Positions 3,762 through 21,520 of a stretch of DNA of 64,000 bases are shown here, piece by piece. The position numbers and the translations under genes were made by a program. The notes below the pieces were generated by a model. It did not search any database. It saw only the letters and a program-made list of their open reading frames with translations, and was not told where the DNA came from. The DNA is from Gloeophyllum trabeum ATCC 11539 (Eukaryota; Basidiomycota; Agaricomycetes; Gloeophyllales; Gloeophyllaceae): NCBI RefSeq assembly GCF_000344685.1, contig NW_006920425.1:207369-271368 (forward strand), written 5' to 3'. How positions within the stretch are numbered: position 1 is the first letter of the stretch; every line of letters starts with the position of its first letter.

Positions 3762-4288
3762 GGTATACGCAAAGGGAACGGGAGGAATCGTAAGGGGGTA
3801 TCCAAGAGCAGACGCAAGAAGGGGAAAGAAGGGATGGACGCATGCTCGGGACTAACGGGGGCTTTATACGTCCGTGGTGTAATTAAACCATGGTCGACAC
3901 TTGCGCTGGCAGAAACAAACGGCAGATTCGCGATTTATTGCGGTTGAACTTGAGTTGTGTCGTTTATGTCAGTTCGTCGCTGGATCTGGAAAGTCCGAGT
4001 CGGGTCGACTGGAGTGAAAGACGGAACGTTGGACGTCGACGCGGAGGGCGACGCTGATTGGCTGAAGCCTGCACCTCCTTCGATCAACGCTCCCGGCCAA
4101 TCACAGCCGCGCTCTCAAAATACACAAGTGCAATCTAATCAGTCACCGTCTCATCCCACGACACCCCTCCATTCTCGTCCCCTCTTCGTCTTCAACATGG
4201 CAAACGTTTCCCATAGCATGAATAATCGCCTCCACGGTCCCCGCCAAGCGCATATATGCCCGCGGAAATCGCCACCCTCCCTAACACC
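3762..4288. promoter_or_regulatory. Divergent promoter interval between dehydrogenase and flavin oxidoreductase
   Basis: About 530 bp between the two divergent start codons, room for shared regulation of two NAD(P)H-linked reductases. The small plus-strand open frame at 3957-4292 has no recognisable product and overlaps the leader of the next gene. An upstream ATG at 4198 lies in a different frame and could act as an upstream open reading frame. Confidence 0.45.
3863..3868 (-). promoter_or_regulatory. TATA box of the alcohol dehydrogenase gene
   Basis: TATAAA on the minus strand about 100 nt before the ATG at 3761, inside the roughly 530-bp interval shared with the divergent flavin oxidoreductase. 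Confidence 0.5.
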
Positions 4289-5603
4289 ATGACCGCCGTC
4301 CCCAAACTCTTCCAGCCCACCACCCTCGGCCCGCTCGCCCTCTCGCACCGCGTCGTCCTCGCCCCGCTCTCCCGGCGCCGCGCGAGCGCCGCGCACGTCC
4401 CCGGCGAGCTCGCCGCGACCTACTACGCGCAGCGCGCCAGCGTCCCCGGGACACTCCTCATCTCCGAGTCCACCGAGATCGCCGCCAAGGCGGGCGGGTC
4501 GGCGAACACGCCGGGCATATGGAGCGACGAGCAGGTCGAGGGGTGGAAGCGGGTGAGCTCTCCGTCGCGTAGTGCGTGGCAGTGCTGATGCGCGCAGGTC
4601 ACGGACGCGGTGCACGCGCGCGGCTCGTACATCGTCTGCCAGCTCCGCGCGCAGGGGCGCGCCGCCGACCCCGCCGTGCTCGCCGCCGACGCCCCCGGCG
4701 CGCCGTACGTCTCCTCCTCCCCCACCCCGCTCTCTTCCCGGCCCTCCCCCCCGCGCGCCTTGACGATCCCCGAGATCGACGAATACTTCTCCCTCTACGC
4801 CACCGCCGCGAGGAATGCGCTAAAGGCGGGGTTCGACGGCGTGGAGGTGCACGCCGCGAACGGGTACCTCGTCGACCAGTTCCTGCAGGACGTCGTGAAC
4901 AAGCGCGAGGACGCGTACGGGGGGAGCGTCGAGCGGCGGTGCAGGTTCGCGCTGGAGGTCGTGGACGCCGTGGTGCGAGTGGTGGGCGCGGAGCGGGTGG
5001 GGATACGGTTGAGCCCCTGGGCGACGTTCAACGGTGCGCCCCTCCTCCCTCCCTCTCCTCCTACCCCCTTGACGTAACCAGACATGCGCATGCCCGACCC
5101 CGTCCCGACCTTCTCCCACCTCGTCTCCTCCCTCCGCGCCGCCCACCCGAGCCTAGCGTACCTGCACCTCGTCGAGCCGCGCGCGGACGGCATCTTCGAC
5201 CGCGAGCCGCCGCCGGGCGAGTCGAACGACTTCATCCGCACCACCTGGTCCGCCCCGGGCGGCCACGACGACGGGCGGCGCATCATCAGCGCGGGCGGGT
5301 ACACGCGCGCCCTGGCGCTCGACGTCGCCGAGCGCACGCGCGACCTGGTCGCGTTCGGGCGGTTCTTCATCTCCAACGTGCGTCCTCCCCCGTCCTTGAT
5401 CTGTCCTGCGTGCGCTGATTTTGGTTGGTGATGACCAGCCGGACCTCCCGACGCGCCTCCTCAAGAACCTCCCGCTCGCGCCGTACGACCGCAAGACGTT
5501 CTACACGCCGGGCCCGGAGGGGTACACCGACTACCCCTTCGCCGACGCAGAAGACTCCCCCGCTCCGACGGCAGCCGACCCTCCAACCCCAACCTCGCGA
5601 TAA
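4289..5603 (+). CDS. NADH:flavin oxidoreductase, old yellow enzyme family
   Basis: FMN-dependent ene-reductase that reduces activated C=C bonds with NAD(P)H. The N-terminus [22 protein letters not shown] is diagnostic of the family (quoted in parts: start KLFQPTTLG, then HRVVLAPL). Downstream are [19 protein letters not shown], the substrate-binding His-Asn pair in [25 protein letters not shown], and the FMN-phosphate region [13 protein letters not shown] followed by [16 protein letters not shown]. Introns at 4553-4598, about 5034-5081 and about 5378-5440 restore one frame. An in-frame ATG at 4256 would add 11 residues. I prefer 4289 because family members begin just before KLFQP. GC is high and codon usage strongly C/G-ending. 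Divergent from the dehydrogenase, and about 530 bp from the 3' end of the repeat-peptide precursor. Confidence 0.93.
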
Positions 5604-6133: not shown

Positions 6134-6559
6134 CTACCAGTCGGAAGCCCGCTTCCAGTCGCTGGCGGGCTCGGGCTCGGGCTCGCGTTTCCAGTCGCTT
6201 GCCCTCTTCCAGTCGGAGGCGCGTTTCCAGTCGGAGGCGCGCTTCCAGTCGGATGCAGGCTCGGGTTCGCGCTTCCAATCCGAGGCGGGCTCAGGCTCGC
6301 GTTTCCAATCGGAAGCGGGCTCCGGTTCGCGTTTCCAGTCCGACGCCCGCTTCCAGTCCGACGCCCGTTTCCAGTCCGAGGCGCGTTTCCAGTCGCTCGC
6401 GGGCTCGGGCTCCCTCTTCCAGTCTGAAGCTGGTTCGGGCTCGCGCTTCCAGTCGCTCGCCCGCTTCCAGTCACTGGCCCGCTTCCAGTCACTGGCCCTC
6501 TTCCAGTCGCTCGCGGGCTCGGGCTCAGGCTCAGGCTCGCGCTTCCAGTCGGACGCGCG
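6134..6559 (-). repeat. Coding tandem repeat of ASDW-KR units
   Basis: The last exon of the precursor: 18- and 30-nt coding units, with 18 copies of ASDW and seven EP-containing spacers. Five different serine codons and four alanine codons are used for the same positions, so the units are not a recent slippage product. Confidence 0.9.
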
Positions 6560-6795
6560 CTGTATAGTAGCAGGCAAAGCCATGAGAACCATGATTAATG
6601 AAGAAAGGGGGGGGGACTCACAGCGACTACGTCGGCCCTGGCCTCGACAACGGGGCTGCGCGCAACCAGATCGCGAGTCTCCTAAAGACGGGGTAAGTAA
6701 GAACCCGCGCACGCCACGGAGGGACGCACCACGGGAGCGGCGCGGGCGACGGCGAGCGCGGAGGCAAAGACGGCGAGCAGGGCTTGGACGCGCAT
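6134..6795 (-). CDS. Secreted Kex2-processed repeat precursor with 18 ASDW units
   Basis: Three exons (6795-6730, a 60-nt exon near 6640-6700, and 6559-6134) encode a protein of about 183 residues. Residues 1-20 form a signal peptide (MRVQALLAVFASALAVARA). A short acidic/basic pro-segment follows (ETRDLVARSPVVEARADVVA). The remaining 141 residues are 18 exact copies of the tetrapeptide ASDW joined by 17 Lys-Arg pairs. Seven of the joints also carry two, three or four Glu-Pro dipeptides directly before ASDW. The protein ends ASDW-stop. Lys-Arg is the Kex2 site, and X-Pro dipeptides are the substrate of Ste13-type dipeptidyl aminopeptidase, so processing should converge on one tetrapeptide. Ser and Ala codons vary between copies while the peptide does not. 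No known function is recognised. Alternatives are a RiPP core or a signalling peptide. Confidence 0.88.
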
Positions 6796-10498: not shown

Positions 10499-12046
10499 GG
10501 AAAGTTTGTCCGCCGAAGGACCAACCGCGTTTCTTTAAAATCAAGCGGGAAGTACTTATGCGAGCGGCTGGCGGTCATCTCGGGTGCGTATAGATGCAGA
10601 ATGGAAATTTGAAAATGCTGATGGTTGTGGTTAGGGATGAGTTGGCTCTCGTTTGATGCTGATGTTCACCGACGGTTTCAAAATAGTGCCTGTTGTGAGC
10701 CTATGCTCTTGCTGTATTTGGTCCCAGCTTGCTAGAGCGGAAGCTGAAGACTACCGGGGTGACCGGGCGGTGGCGTCGCCTCCCCTGCAGTCTGGAGGTG
10801 AAGACCTGGGCGCAGGTATATCTACGTCCCTCTTGGCTCTGAATGAATAAGTTTCACATACATTCCGCTCTTTATCTCAAGCCTTGTAGTACTCGGCATA
10901 ACATCTGCATCAGACAAGTCCTGTGTCTCGAGCTATCTTCCTGTAATCGATATGGATGGTACAAGATCTCTGATACGCTTCGAAGCTCGGGGAAGGAAGA
11001 TAGATGGATGGGTATATGTACGGAAGGTGTCTCCACTTGTGAGTGTGACGGCCCTCTCATTGTGTGTTGAGCAGTTGCTTATCTCTATGTGTTTTCTCCT
11101 TTAAGCTGGGCAATGCGACGGTAGAATCACCGACACTTGTAAGTAGTGGATCGCAGATCACAAGTTACGCAAGGCCAGGGCTCTGAAGCATGTGAAGAAG
11201 TTCCCATCTGACATGTGATCCAAGGGCAACGGTGCTGGAGACCGGAGAGGATTGCGAGCTAACAACGATGTGGCCATTTCGAAACTATCCGGAAACAGTC
11301 ACAATGAGGTAAGTAGAGTACTGGAGGCGTTCAAGTCGAGGGTAACCACAGCAGTCTTCGTGGGTTCAGACCGTTACCGTAATCTCGCTAACTTCGCCGG
11401 TGAGTGGAGTATTTGCTTCTGTAAACCTTAATAACCCTACTATTGAGTCCTTACCCCACATCGAACTCAGTTCTGTTGACTGCCACCATTTCCAACTACC
11501 CTCGCTCTGCATAACTCAAGTCTCGGAGACTGTCATTCTCTTTCCTTCATGTCAAGTCCATTCTCACTCAAGGCCATCCATTCGTGCTTCAGCAAGTGAA
11601 GCGAACGTCCAAGTATTGTAGCTCCAGGAAATTGACATGTATAGTTTTGGTGCCTGTGGAAGATGTCTGTCCACCTGACTACCGCTCAACGCCAACTTTT
11701 CTCGTTTTTTCCAGGAAGAAGCCGAGATAATGTAGTAAGCTGAATGCTCTTCTGATGGCGAGCTAAAATAGATGCTAATATCTTCTCATACCCTTTTGAA
11801 CCACATCAAGGGACTACCTGAAACCTGAGCTCAATCCATCCACTCTAGGCAACCCCACCTTGTATCCGCTGCTAGCCAGACAGCGTACAGCGGTGTCTCT
11901 CTGTCTGATCGCAGCAGGCCTTCCCCGTGATAAGGTGATAAGGGAGGGGCTCGGATGTATATCCAGTGAAGTATATCAGCCATATATGTGATCCTTCAGC
12001 CTCGGGCAGCCGACTTACCCTCGTCCTGTAGAGCCCTCAAGTCGCC
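10499..12046. other. Intergenic region upstream of the first permease
   Basis: About 1.5 kb between divergent starts. Only short open frames without recognisable motifs. No TE termini found. Confidence 0.5.
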
Positions 12047-13910
12047 ATGTCTCAGCGTCACCTGCATAACAGCACCTTGCGGTCCTCTATGGAGAACTTG
12101 AAGGTGGACATGGAGAAGCAGCCCGAGTCGTTCGTTAGGACGACCGTCGCAGAGCTCGAGGCGATGGACGACGGAGTTCCGCGTAATCGAGGAATCTTCG
12201 CCAAACTATGGGCGATTGTGCAGATGCTGGATAGGTTCGGTGTAGAGGCCATGGGAATTGAGCGCGTGCCAGCGACGAGGCGTCCGCAGCGAAATCCTTG
12301 GGATTGCTTCACAATGTGGTGCGCGGCCAATACAACCATCTCGACGTTCAGCACCGGAACTCTTGGTCCTGGTTTATTCGACATGGGCTTGAGAGACTCG
12401 ATATTGACTATCCTATTTTTTAACCTTGTTTCGACTATCCCGGTGGTGAGCTCATCAATAGTCCTCGAACTAACCAGTATTAAATGACTGTGTCGCAGGC
12501 CTACTTCTCTATTTTTGGTGCTCGTAGCGGCTTGAGACAGATGGTATTCTCTCGCTTCACCTTCGGGTATTGGTTCTGCATGCTCCCAGGGGTAGGTCTA
12601 GCACGCATTCGCTCAAGTATTTTATGCTTAAGTTGTATAGATTCTCAATTGTATCGCTACTATAGGTTGGGCCACAATCAACACGATTGTTGGGGGCCAG
12701 ACGTTTCGAGCTATCTCCAGCTCAAACAATATTCCGGTGTGGGCCGGTATCCTGATTATCGCTGTTCTGAGTCTACTCCCACCATTCGCTGGGTATAGAT
12801 TCGTCCACAATTATGAGCGGTGGTCTTGGATTGCCCCTGCCATCATTTTCTTCGTCATGCTTGGCACAGGTCTCAGCTACATAGAAGACGGTTGGGGTGG
12901 CAGCGGGCCTGTAGAAGCTGCCAGCGTTTTGAACTTCGCGGCGAGCGTCGTCGGCTACGGGCTTGGTTGGGCCAGTTTTTCAGCTGATTATACAGTGTAA
13001 GCTCGACTCTCCTCCGCTTCCTGTTGTCAACTAAGCGCGTCACGCAGAAACTTGCCCGAGGATACTTCCGCTTGGAGCATTTTTGTTGCGACGTATCTCG
13101 GTCTTAACGTTCCTCTGATCTTGGTGGAATCCCTCGGCGCTGCGTATATGACTACCATCGTCAACAACTCTACTTGGTCGGATATGTATGACGCAAATAG
13201 CGTCGGAGGTTTGATTGCGGCTGGGCTCACTCCCCTGAATGGCGTAGGCCATTTCTTCACTTTGATAATGGCACTTTCCATTGTCGCCAACAACATACCA
13301 GATGTCTACTCCCTTGCTCTCACTGTGCAGATATTCGGCCCTCGGTTCCAGGCTGTTCCCCGAGTCTTCATTTCCGTTATCGGGACTGCTGTGTATATCG
13401 TTCTTGCCATCGTGGGTGCCTCTCATTTTGAGTCCTGGCTTGATACGCTTCTGGTCCTGCTGTCGTATTGGACTGCCATATACGCAATACTTCTTACGGA
13501 AGAGCATCTCATCTTCAGGCGCAGCTGGAGCAATTACGACTTCGACGCATTTAGCAAGTATCAAGCCCAACCACCTGGGATAGCAGCGTTCATTGCACTT
13601 GGGTGTGGGGTGATGGGGGCCGTCTTGGGTATGGCACAGACGTGGGTACGTACCAGGTACCCCTTGCGCACGTGTTACAACAGATTTATATGACCATGCT
13701 GCTTCTTTCGTCAGTACATCGGCATCCTTGGCCGCAAAATCGGCGACCTCAACCTTGGTGGTGATATTGGATTTGAGCTTGCATTTGCGTTTTCTGCCAT
13801 CGTGCGTCACTTCCTTGCCTCAGATATCGGCAGTTGAGACAGATGGGGATGAACACATACAGTCTTACCCCCCCTTACGCTACCTCGAGAAACAGTACTT
13901 CGAACGTTGA
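12047..13910 (+). CDS. NCS1 purine-cytosine permease, paralogue A
   Basis: Plasma-membrane nucleobase:proton symporter of the fungal FCY2 type (NCS1 family, about 12 membrane helices). The cytosolic N-terminus has the conserved block GIERVPATRRPQRNPWDCFT followed by FTMWCAANTTISTFSTGTLG. Later exons give the GLRQMVFSRFTFGYWFCMLPG segment (in parts), INTIVGGQTFRA, YERWSWIAPAIIFFVMLGTG and the long last-but-two exon with GASHFESWLDTLLVLLSYW and TEEHLIFRRSW. The tail is YPPLRYLEKQYFER, stop at 13910. Introns fall at the same positions as in the two paralogues at 15404 and 19666. All motifs are intact, so it is probably functional. Substrate (adenine, guanine, hypoxanthine, cytosine) is not decided by sequence. 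Confidence 0.92.
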
Positions 13911-15364: not shown

Positions 15365-15403
15365 TATGTGACGGCTTGAGTTGCTCCTCTGTTACCTACT
15401 AAC

Positions 15404-17264
15404 ATGTCGACCCTCGACAACGCGACGTCCCGCTCGTCGTTGGAGAAGGCGACGAGTGCCGGGACGCACGACCCCGAGAAACAGTCTGCACCAGTGCACA
15501 CGACCGTGGTCGAACTGGAAGCGCTCGACGACGGCGTACCACGGAACCGTGGTGTGTTTGCGAAGCTATGGGCGATCGTGCAGAAGTTGGACCGGTACGG
15601 TGTCGAGGCTCGGGGCATCGAGCGGGTGCCACCTGCGGAGCGCCCACAGAAGAACCCATGGGACTGCTTTACGATGTGGTGCGCTGCGAATACAACAATC
15701 AGCACGTTCAGTCTGGGTACGCTCGGGGCGAGCATATTTGAGATGGGCCTGAGGGACTCGGTCTTGACAATCGTTTTCTTTAATCTATTGTCGACCGTCC
15801 CAGTGGTATGTATTCAAACGACTTGCGCTGGCGACTGCAAACTAAGTCATGCGACAGGCTTACTTCTCGTCATTCGGTGCCCGTACGGGTCTGCGACAAA
15901 TGGTATTTTCCCGATTTGCCTTTGGGTACTGGGTGTGCATGTTCCCGGGTGTAGGTGGCCTGTCTTACCCTTGCACTCAATTTATTCACCTTGAATAGAT
16001 CCTGAACGTGATCGCCACAGTGGGGTGGTCTACGATCAACAGTATTGTGGGAGGACAGACCCTTCGCGCCGTCTCGACGCACAACCAGATACCTGTCTGG
16101 GCGGGAATATTAATCATTGCGCTCCTCACCCTCTTCCCCTCGTTCGCGGGATACAAGTTTGTACACACCTACGAGCGGTGGTCATGGATCGCGCCTGCGA
16201 TCATTTTCTTCATTATGCTTGGAACCGGCTTGGGATACATGGAACAGGGTGCGTGGGGCGGCAGCGGCCCTGTAGAAGCCGCAAGCGTCTTGAGCTTCGG
16301 CGCAAGCATCGTCGGTTTCGGGATTGGCTGGGTCAGCTATGCCGCCGACTACACTGTGTGGGTGTTTACGATTACTATCGCATCCATCTCGTCGTTGACG
16401 TCGCTCTTCAGTAATTTACCGGAAAACACTTCCGCGTGGAAGATTTTCGTGGCTACCTACGCAGGGCTCAATATCCCGCTCATCCTGGTCGAGTCTCTCG
16501 GCGCCGCCTACATGACCACGCTCGCCAACAACTCCGCATGGTCTGATCTGTACACCGCGAACGGCGTAGGCGGGCTCATCGCGGCGGGACTCACGCCGCT
16601 GAACGGCGTCGGCCGCTTCCTGACCGTCATCATGGGCCTGTCGATCGTGGCAAATAACATCCCGAACATATACTCGCTCTCGCTGACGGTGCAGATCTTC
16701 GGACCCGTCTTCCAGGCGATCCCGCGGCTCTTCATCACGCTCATCGGTACGGCGGTGTACATCGTCCTCGCCATTGTGGGCGCGAGCCATTTCGAGGAGT
16801 GGCTGGATACCCTGCTGGTGCTGCTCAGCTACTGGCTGGTGATATACGCTACCATTGTGACGGAAGAACATCTCATTTTCAGGGGCGGAAGGTGGGCAAG
16901 GTATGAGTTGGACATGTACAACAGGAAGAGTGTACACCCTGTCGGGTGGGCAGCGTTTGTGGCGCTTGGGTGTGGGGTCATGGGTGCGGTGCTTGGTATG
17001 GCTCAGACTTGGGTGAGTATCTATTGTGTTTTATTGGTTATGGTCTCTGACAGTCCGATAGTATGTGGGTGTGATCGGGAGGAAGATCGGGGATCCTGCC
17101 TTCGGCGGGGACGTCGGCTTCGAGCTTGCCGCTGCTTTCACTGCGATAGTAAGCACTTCCATTCGATCTTGCCCCCGCCAGATCATGAGGTTACTTAACT
17201 CCCATCTTATCTTTAGGCATATCCACCACTCCGTTACTTTGAGAAAAAGTACTTCAGTCGATAA
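15404..17264 (+). CDS. NCS1 purine-cytosine permease, paralogue B
   Basis: Close paralogue of the permease at 12047, with the same exon plan and landmarks: GIERVPPAERPQKNPWDCFT, INSIVGGQTLRAVSTHNQ, YERWSWIAPAIIFFIMLGTG, GASHFEEWLDTLLVLLSYW, TEEHLIF and tail YPPLRYFEKKYFSR ending at 17264. GC3 is clearly higher than in copy A. The 54-nt intron at 16358-16411 is a multiple of three without a stop. Comparison with copies A and C, which splice at the same phase, shows it should be removed. If retained it would add 18 residues. The leader is only 39 bp from a MITE, so its native promoter may have been displaced. Confidence 0.92.
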
Positions 17265-19665: not shown

Positions 19666-21520
19666 TCAACGACCAAACAGCCTTCTCTCAAGATATCTTA
19701 ACGGCGGATATGCCTATATATCGTGGCATCAGTGTCCTGTGTTTCGGCTTCATCATGCCAAAATCACTCACGATGCCAGAGAACGCCAGAGAGAGCTCAA
19801 ATCCAATGTTACCCCCAACCGTGGGATCTCCAATCTTCCGAGCCAGAATGCCGATGTACTGGTCAGGCATAAGGACAGTCAGCGCCTAACCTGCTGATAA
19901 TTGGCACAATGTTTCAGAGTACTCACCCAAGACTGCGCGACCCCAAACACAGCACCCATGACGCCGCATCCGAATGCCACTGAGGCTGCTATCCCGGGCG
20001 GCAGCGCAGAGCGTTTGTTCGCGGAATCCAGTTCATAGTTCCTCCAGCTTCTGCGAAAAATGACATGCTCCTCTATGACGAGTGTAGCAAAGATTGCCTG
20101 CCAGTACGACAGTAGCACCAACAACGTATCCAGCCAGGCCTCGAAATGCGATGCACCCACGATCGAGAGAACAATATAGACCGCCGTGCCGATGAGCGTG
20201 ATGAACAAACGCGGGACGGCCTGAAAGACGGGCCCGAAGATCGGAACAGTGAGGGATAAGGAGTAGACATTCGGTATATTATTAGCGACAACCGAGAGGG
20301 CCATGAGGAGGGTGAAGAAGTGACCAATGCCGTTGAGCGGGGTAAGCCCAGCAGCGATGAGACCGCCCACGCCGTTGGCGTCGTACAGCGCCGACCAGGC
20401 TGAGTTATTGATGATCGTGGTCATGTACGCGGCTCCCAGAGACTCTACTAGTATCAAGGAAGTGTTCAGGCCCAGATATGTCGCGGCGAAGATTTTCCAA
20501 GTCGGTGTGTCCTCGGGCAAGTTCCTGGGAGAGCCAATGAACATGCGTGACTGCAACAGATGTAAAGAAGACAGCTCACACTGTATAATCGCCTGCGTAG
20601 CTTGCCCACCCAAGACCATACCCAACGACAACAGTACCAAAGCTCAGTACGGTGGCAGCCTCCAAAGGCCCGGTGGCGCCCCATGTGCCTCCCTCCATAT
20701 AGCGAAGCCCTGTACCCAGCATAATAAAGAAGATAACCGCAGGAGCGATCCACGACCAGCGTTGATAATTATGCACAAATCTGTAGCCGGCGAAAGGTGG
20801 TAGGAGGCTCAGGATTGCGATAATAATGTTGCTAGCCCAGACCGGGATCTGGTGCGTACTGGAGACGGCACGGAGAGTCTTGCCTCCGACGATCGTGTTG
20901 ATTATGGTCCAGCCTATGGCACCTACGCAATTCAGAAGCTAAAGGTCCGTGAGCAGGCTATATCGTCGTTTGAGATCAAGACGACCTACGCCTGGCAACA
21001 TACAGAACCAGTACCCGAAGGCGAATCGAGAGAAGACCATCTGCCTCAAGCCGGTGCGACAACCAAAAGTTGAAAGATACGCCTATGGAGAAGCCATTGT
21101 GCGCCAAACGAGGAGAGAAGGACCGTCATAACGTACCACCGGTACGGTCCAAAGGATATTGAAGAATACGATGCACAGCACGGAGTCTCGCAAGCTCATC
21201 CCAAACGTCCCCGGAGCGAGCGTGCCGCCACTGAACGCGCCCAGCTGCGTATTGGCGGCACACCACATCGTGAAGCAGTCCCAGGGGCTCTTCTGCGGAC
21301 GTTCCGTCGGAGGTACGCGTTCGATGCCTCTCGCCTCTACGCCGTACTTGTCTAGCTTTTGCACAATGGCCCATAGTTTGGCGAACAATCCGCGATTGCG
21401 CGGTACGCCATCGTCCGCGTTTTCGAGCCCTACGACGGCAGTGGTGGTGAGCGGCTCCGATTGCTTCTCCGTGTCGTCGTTGCTGTGATGGAGAGACGAT
21501 TGGGAGGCGCTGCTATCCAT
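19666..21520 (-). CDS. NCS1 purine-cytosine permease, paralogue C
   Basis: Third member of the permease family, on the opposite strand. It starts MDSSASQSSLHHSNDDTEKQ, then GIERVPPTERPQKSPWDCFT. Spliced exons give GLRQMVFSRFAFGYWFCMLPG (in parts), MHNYQRWSWIAPAVIFFIML, GASHFEAWLDTLLVLLSYW and IEEHVIFRRSW. The tail is YPPLRYLERRLFGR, stop at 19666. The short membrane-proximal stretch NTQLGAFSGGTLAPGTFGM differs from NTTISTFSTGTLG in copy A, and this is a substrate-facing helix in NCS1 carriers, so specificity may differ. Intron positions are shared with A and B. It lies 4.1 kb from B in inverted orientation. Confidence 0.92.

Follow-up and report, generated by a model that had tools for sequence, protein, structure and literature searches.

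The ASDW gene of Gloeophyllum trabeum ATCC 11539 encodes, as judged from its spliced sequence, an XSDW-type KEX2-processed repeat protein (KEP) that is laid out like an alpha-factor precursor. Its product is most likely a secreted precursor from which 18 copies of the tetrapeptide ASDW would be cut. The whole proposed scheme, in which linear ASDW is released and then acts as a self-directed signal, is assigned a probability of about 0.6. Its processing part, up to the linear tetrapeptide, is considered highly probable from the motifs present.

The gene is on the minus strand of the window, i.e. the entire 64,000 nt stretch of contig NW_006920425.1 (C16) that was analyzed. Conceptual splicing of the window sequence gives a 183 amino acid protein, with the ATG at position 6795 and the stop codon at positions 6136–6134. 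An initial reading made from the sequence alone (the sequence-only reading) had predicted a minus-strand gene with three exons, and two GT-AG introns of phase 0 do give this 183-residue frame (Table 1). An in-frame stop codon arises if intron 1, or intron 2 alone, stays in the transcript, thus splicing is needed to link the signal-like peptide with the ASDW repeats. An unspliced reading was rejected on the stops in both introns. The N-terminal region is hydrophobic, with the highest Kyte-Doolittle mean (2.33, among the segments printed) at residues 7–15; this hydropathy and the ARA|APV context point to a putative signal peptide. By its structure, the locus is a real and sound gene.

Table 1. 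Features of the ASDW gene (positions in the window)
Feature	Positions	Strand	Description
TATA-box-like TATATAA	6866–6872	-	77 bases 5′ of the ATG; consensus match alone
Exon 1	6730–6795	-	66 bases; ATG and the signal-like peptide MRVQALLAVFASALAVARA|APV
Intron 1	6682–6729	-	48 bases, GTGCGT...TTTAG, GT-AG, phase 0
Exon 2	6622–6681	-	60 bases; 20-residue pro-segment ETRDLVARSPVVEARADVVA
Intron 2	6560–6621	-	62 bases, GTGAGT...ACAG, GT-AG, phase 0
Exon 3	6134–6559	-	Arg, 18 ASDW units, 17 KR linkers (7 with (EP)2–4 after KR), TAG
Repeat array itself (first A through last W)	6137–6556	-	from sequence and tandem-repeat periods 18, 30, 114 and 144

All 18 ASDW units are exact and the last one abuts the stop codon, as the sequence-only reading had stated. 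Its statement that the units are joined only by Lys-Arg is wrong, however. Lys-Arg alone is found in 10 of the 17 linkers, and in the other seven KR is followed by Glu-Pro dipeptides (EPEP in five, EPEPEP in one and EPEPEPEP in one). A single Arg (DVVAR), not KR, precedes the first unit. With 18 identical units and 17 KR linkers, the protein shows the repeat arrangement required of a KEP, in which three or more nearly identical repeats are set apart by dibasic sites. It also displays the published (X)SDW or DW[K/R]R motif of XSDW/MiSSP8-type proteins, the first 17 of the 18 units being ASDWKR, and the STE13 signature, with XP dipeptides directly after the kexin site in 7 of the 17 linkers. A Pfam search with the precursor and eight relatives (described below) gave an acidic repeat family at 18.1 bits against a cut-off of 100 bits, and a match of the relative P0009 (E-value = 0.28) that is also below cut-off.

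The 17 ASDWKR units comprise 16 distinct 18-mers, all of which encode one peptide. Compared in pairs (136), the units show 532 base differences in total, all in synonymous codons and none in non-synonymous ones, and the peptide is thus under selection. Divergence among the ASDW copies has been silent, with the peptide kept constant. Serine is encoded by AGY in 7 of the 17 units and by TCN in the rest, and 70 of the 136 pairs differ at this codon. When 50 random changes were placed on the ASDWKR consensus, none of 100000 trials left every unit intact; this is a rough yardstick, since it takes no account of the common ancestry of the units and counts each switch of Ser codon as one independent change. 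The other frames show 16 and 16 variants per 17 units (forward) and 13, 5 and 16 (reverse), compared with one in the ASDW frame. The array also contains tandem repeats with periods of 114 and 144 bases (window positions 6172–6561), and the units were therefore probably duplicated in groups, as a higher-order repeat.

In the proposed processing, the signal peptide would bring the precursor into the secretory pathway, where kexin would cleave after every Lys-Arg. The genome has one P_proprotein match, a kexin candidate, and the exon there has chain 1ot5 (Kexin) as its closest solved structure (3.9e-75). A KEX1-type carboxypeptidase would then strip Lys-Arg from 17 units, the 18th already ending in Trp; the position of the final unit next to the stop codon suggests that Trp is the intended C-terminus. 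S10 carboxypeptidases gave 35 exon matches in the genome, none singled out as KEX1; the machinery searches were run exon by exon, and for large families their counts should be read as minima. An STE13/DPP4-type aminopeptidase would next take Glu-Pro off seven units and halt at Ala-Ser. Because ASDW starts with Ala-Ser and not with XA or XP, dipeptide trimming should stop there, leaving linear ASDW (average mass 477.5) as the common product of all units. The one DPPIV_N match in the genome, with dipeptidyl peptidase 4 as its best solved-structure matches, is taken as a candidate for the STE13-type enzyme. Finally, the secreted ASDW may act on the fungus that makes it, possibly over a short range as a signal for hyphae to aggregate or for tissue to form. 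A self-signaling role of this kind is plausible by analogy; the version limited to hyphal aggregation is put forward tentatively, at less than even odds.

The sequence-only reading, a Kex2-type repeat precursor that should yield many copies of a small secreted peptide, holds for the predicted product, but it was incomplete in that the (EP)n spacers were missed. These spacers place the ASDW gene with alpha-factor-type precursors. The layout predicted for the ASDW precursor (signal peptide, pro-region, KR followed by acidic-X dipeptides, repeats and the KEX1/KEX2/STE13 route) is that of the Saccharomyces alpha-factor precursor as described by Le Marquer et al. (2019; PMC6339444), which differs in its EA/DA spacers, two or four copies and unrelated core. 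The same source describes removal by STE13 of the KR-adjacent XP/XA dipeptides in alpha-factor precursors. Basidiomycete mating pheromones are lipidated and a-type (PMC9769878), thus the purpose of the alpha-factor-style precursors of these fungi is an open question.

A search for the STE2 receptor gave no matches in the genome, but control genomes likewise gave none. The same kind of search for STE3 gave 33 exon matches, all on contig C6 within ~62 kb (C6:371218–433089). This dense cluster resembles a B mating-type locus.

A second XSDW-type precursor gene is present in the same genome at C1:3244527–3244006, on the minus strand. It encodes 139 residues in three exons (66, 36 and 318 bases) with two introns between them, both of phase 0 and measuring 48 and 54 bases. 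Its exon 1 and intron 1 match those of the ASDW gene in length, at 66 and 48 bases. The C1 protein displays 13 DW-ending units, i.e. GSDW nine times, GGSDW three times and GTDW once, with GSDW directly before the stop codon and EP, EPEP, EAEP or EPQR before some of the units. The ASDW and C1 proteins have a 51% identity over 162 columns (BLASTP, filters off), a value inflated by the common repeats. By raw count, the two genes share four 8-mers (two of them overlapping) within the 300 bases that precede each of them.

The genome assembly searched has 35.5 Mb in 34 contigs. A pattern of two neighboring Trp-Lys-Arg units matched it at 46 places, 16 in the ASDW locus, 9 in the dense C1 array and 21 scattered, compared with 29 in a backward-read control. 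Two patterns that also allow DW followed by RR (28 matches, control 1; 7 matches, control 0) showed no third dense array in the genome. The loose pattern GAYTGG is uninformative, with 676 forward and 695 reverse matches in the genome against 652 and 572 in the controls.

A protein database search with the ASDW protein gave five matches at E-values up to 10. Four of these (P0001–P0004) are plausible relatives, with E-values of 6.6e-9 to 4.9e-3, and the fifth (P0005, E-value = 7.4) was dropped. A profile made from the ASDW protein and P0001–P0004 added P0006–P0009 at E-values of 3.0e-7 to 4.5e-2. Several matches are weak, i.e. P0003 (1.8e-3), P0004 (4.9e-3), P0008 (4.5e-3) and P0009 (4.5e-2), and some of the relatives are apparently mispredicted, as they contain intron-like stretches. 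The eight relatives display -DW cores and EP/EA-type spacers. P0001 and P0002, the latter from Ramaria rubella, have the three-residue core ADW with EP spacers. In-silico digestion consisted of cutting after KR or RR followed by an ad hoc trimming rule for EP/EA-like dipeptides. All pieces end in DW for the ASDW protein (17 of 17, which excludes the first unit as it precedes the first dibasic cut), the C1 protein (13 of 13), P0003 (6 of 6) and P0004 (5 of 5). The numbers for the others are 11 of 12 (P0001), 6 of 9 (P0002), 4 of 5 (P0006), 2 of 4 (P0007), 4 of 5 (P0008) and 1 of 4 (P0009). P0002, P0007 and P0009 contain variant units (AQW or ASW), thus the DW ending is not absolute in the relatives.

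The gene neighborhood was also described. An FMN oxidoreductase gene (window positions 4226–5431, plus strand) is tail-to-tail with the ASDW gene; two of its open frames exceed the Oxidored_FMN cut-off and a third is below it. Three similar membrane-protein genes are found in a row at 12032–13693 (plus), 15380–17198 (plus) and 19879–20643 (minus). The first has an open frame over the cut-off for the cytosine/purine permease family; the other two have no Pfam match, and their translations appear alike by eye. One protein of the window is closest to Heliocybe sulcata (60% identity), followed by Neolentinus lepideus (45%, a partial protein), among 52 matches. Both species belong to the Gloeophyllales, an order of fungi that live by wood decay.

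The ASDW gene, by its motif, adds to a published family of mushroom peptide precursors; the membership is motif-based, and sequence similarity is shown to P0001–P0004 and the C1 paralogue. Among the KEPs described from Basidiomycota by Le Marquer et al. (2019; PMC6339444) are precursors with a repeated X-S-D-W motif, as in the ASDW protein. In Laccaria bicolor, MiSSP8 (Pellegrin et al. 2019) is described as a small secreted protein with the same C-terminal DW[K/R]R repeat and a KEX2 site (PMC10106355), but it belongs to an ectomycorrhizal fungus. The sequence-only reading knew of no described ASDW peptide. This stands for ASDW itself, in that no paper naming such a peptide was found in a search that covered papers apart from the supplementary tables of PMC6339444 and PMC7329392, which may list it. 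The motif is nevertheless published, as XSDW (PMC6339444) and as DW[K/R]R in MiSSP8 (PMC10106355). The search with SDWKR found no paper, and the searches with ASDW and DWRR (for DWRR among the matches listed) gave no relevant title on fungal peptides.

Further likeness is seen in KEPs 1091723 and 1439342 of Pleurotus, which share KEX2 sites, STE13-type XP/XA dipeptides and a -ADW end, but have cores of 7–8 residues and not four, and end in AADW and not ASDW (Vogt et al. 2022; PMC9769878). The peptides SGVAADW, MSGVAADW and, in P. ostreatus, LSGVAADW were detected by mass spectrometry and confirmed with synthetic standards; shiitake SGTGEASAADW was also confirmed, and the common -AADW ending was remarked upon (PMC9769878). 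KEP type #7 of Umemura (2020; PMC7329392) is a lead by its table description, with one KEP per strain in 49 genera. These include Gloeophyllum, Heliocybe, Neolentinus, Laccaria and Pleurotus, and a DUF3328 neighbor is listed for 0 of 64 (PMC7329392).

An alternative to a self-directed signal is that the peptides are aimed at other organisms, whether bacteria, animals, competing fungi or plant tissue. This is somewhat improbable, although it survives better than the other alternatives. In axenic culture, six KEP knockouts of C. cinerea are reported to have no phenotype, and the study leans towards biotic interactions as the role of KEPs (PMC9769878); C. cinerea KEP peptides made synthetically had no antibacterial activity on the strains tested, as reported in the same text. 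An acidic tetrapeptide would also be an unlikely membrane-active agent. MiSSP8 is termed an effector by which the fungus communicates with its host tree (PMC10106355) and is required for poplar mycorrhization, which is impaired by knockdown (PMC7329392). However, the XSDW motif is common to saprotrophs and an ectomycorrhizal fungus (PMC6339444). The repetitive motif of MiSSP8 is found in secreted proteins of saprotrophs as well (PMC7105643), the gene is upregulated in both ectomycorrhiza and fruiting bodies (PMC8708209), and a function in hyphal aggregation has been proposed (PMC10106355).

The sequence-only reading had likened the precursor to those of ustiloxin-type RiPPs, and ASDW could be the core of a cyclized, UstYa-modified product (dikaritin) like the tetrapeptide ustiloxins. 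The ustiloxin and phomopsin precursors likewise have kexin-cut repeats, the core here has four residues, and UstYa genes are present in the genome (13 matches in the exon-by-exon search). A DUF3328 (UstYa) gene is located near 17 of 76 KEPs that resemble six alpha-type-looking basidiomycete precursors, including Pleurotus 1091723 (PMC7329392). None of the 13 UstYa matches is on C16, however, and the family is absent from the 20 open frames scanned in the window (13 of 69 and 8 of 10 listed, one shared) and from the 10 of 18 listed open frames scanned in the 20 kb to its left. The ASDW gene differs also in spacer type and in its core, which has no Tyr. STE13 signatures are reported to be absent from the precursors of toxic cyclic tetrapeptides and epichloecyclins (PMC6339444), and a DUF3328 neighbor is given for 103 of 1680 basidiomycete KEPs (PMC7329392). 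A cyclized product is thus very unlikely, and the dikaritin interpretation was rejected as the leading one on the UstYa count for the contig. Analogy with alpha-factor and MiSSP8 fits the ASDW gene, and that with ustiloxin is not supported. The UstYa matches form divergent pairs at four loci elsewhere in the genome (C5:695286–697054, C6:576013–579183, C7:393343–395321 and C14:701070–702866), which are possible RiPP clusters.

It is likewise very unlikely that the protein functions whole or after partial cutting, in a structural or surface role outside the cell. In Ustilago maydis, the repeat products that kexin cuts from Rep1 are water repellents on aerial hyphae (PMC7329392), thus repeat proteins of such layout can have surface roles. 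Against this are the 18 invariant units with KR or KR-(EP)n before all except the first, the -DW endings that are common to relatives with differing linkers, and the small peptides produced from the related Pleurotus precursors (PMC9769878). There is a negligible probability that the array is a GC-rich repeat, non-coding or in decay, that is open by accident; other frames over the array are also open for long stretches on both strands, but the 532 to 0 ratio of differences, the invariance of the ASDW frame alone and the paralogue of the same gene structure argue otherwise, and the antisense or non-coding reading was rejected on the frame-invariance and difference counts.

The locus is compact, with one invariant tetrapeptide that is cheap to synthesize and a single detected paralogue of the same structure. 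As this genome has both an ASDW and a GSDW gene, the role of DW peptides can be tested. If the peptides act on their own fungus, they would offer a simple handle on hyphal aggregation, fruiting and the origin of symbiosis factors such as MiSSP8. A bolder proposal, which is unlikely as it stands, is that ASDW and (G)GSDW, from the two paralogues, are paired hormones of four to five residues in a wood-inhabiting mushroom fungus that are made by the alpha-factor route, are perceived by a receptor other than STE2 and set hyphal aggregation into tissue. Were it true, MiSSP8 would represent the symbiotic reuse of an older developmental signal.
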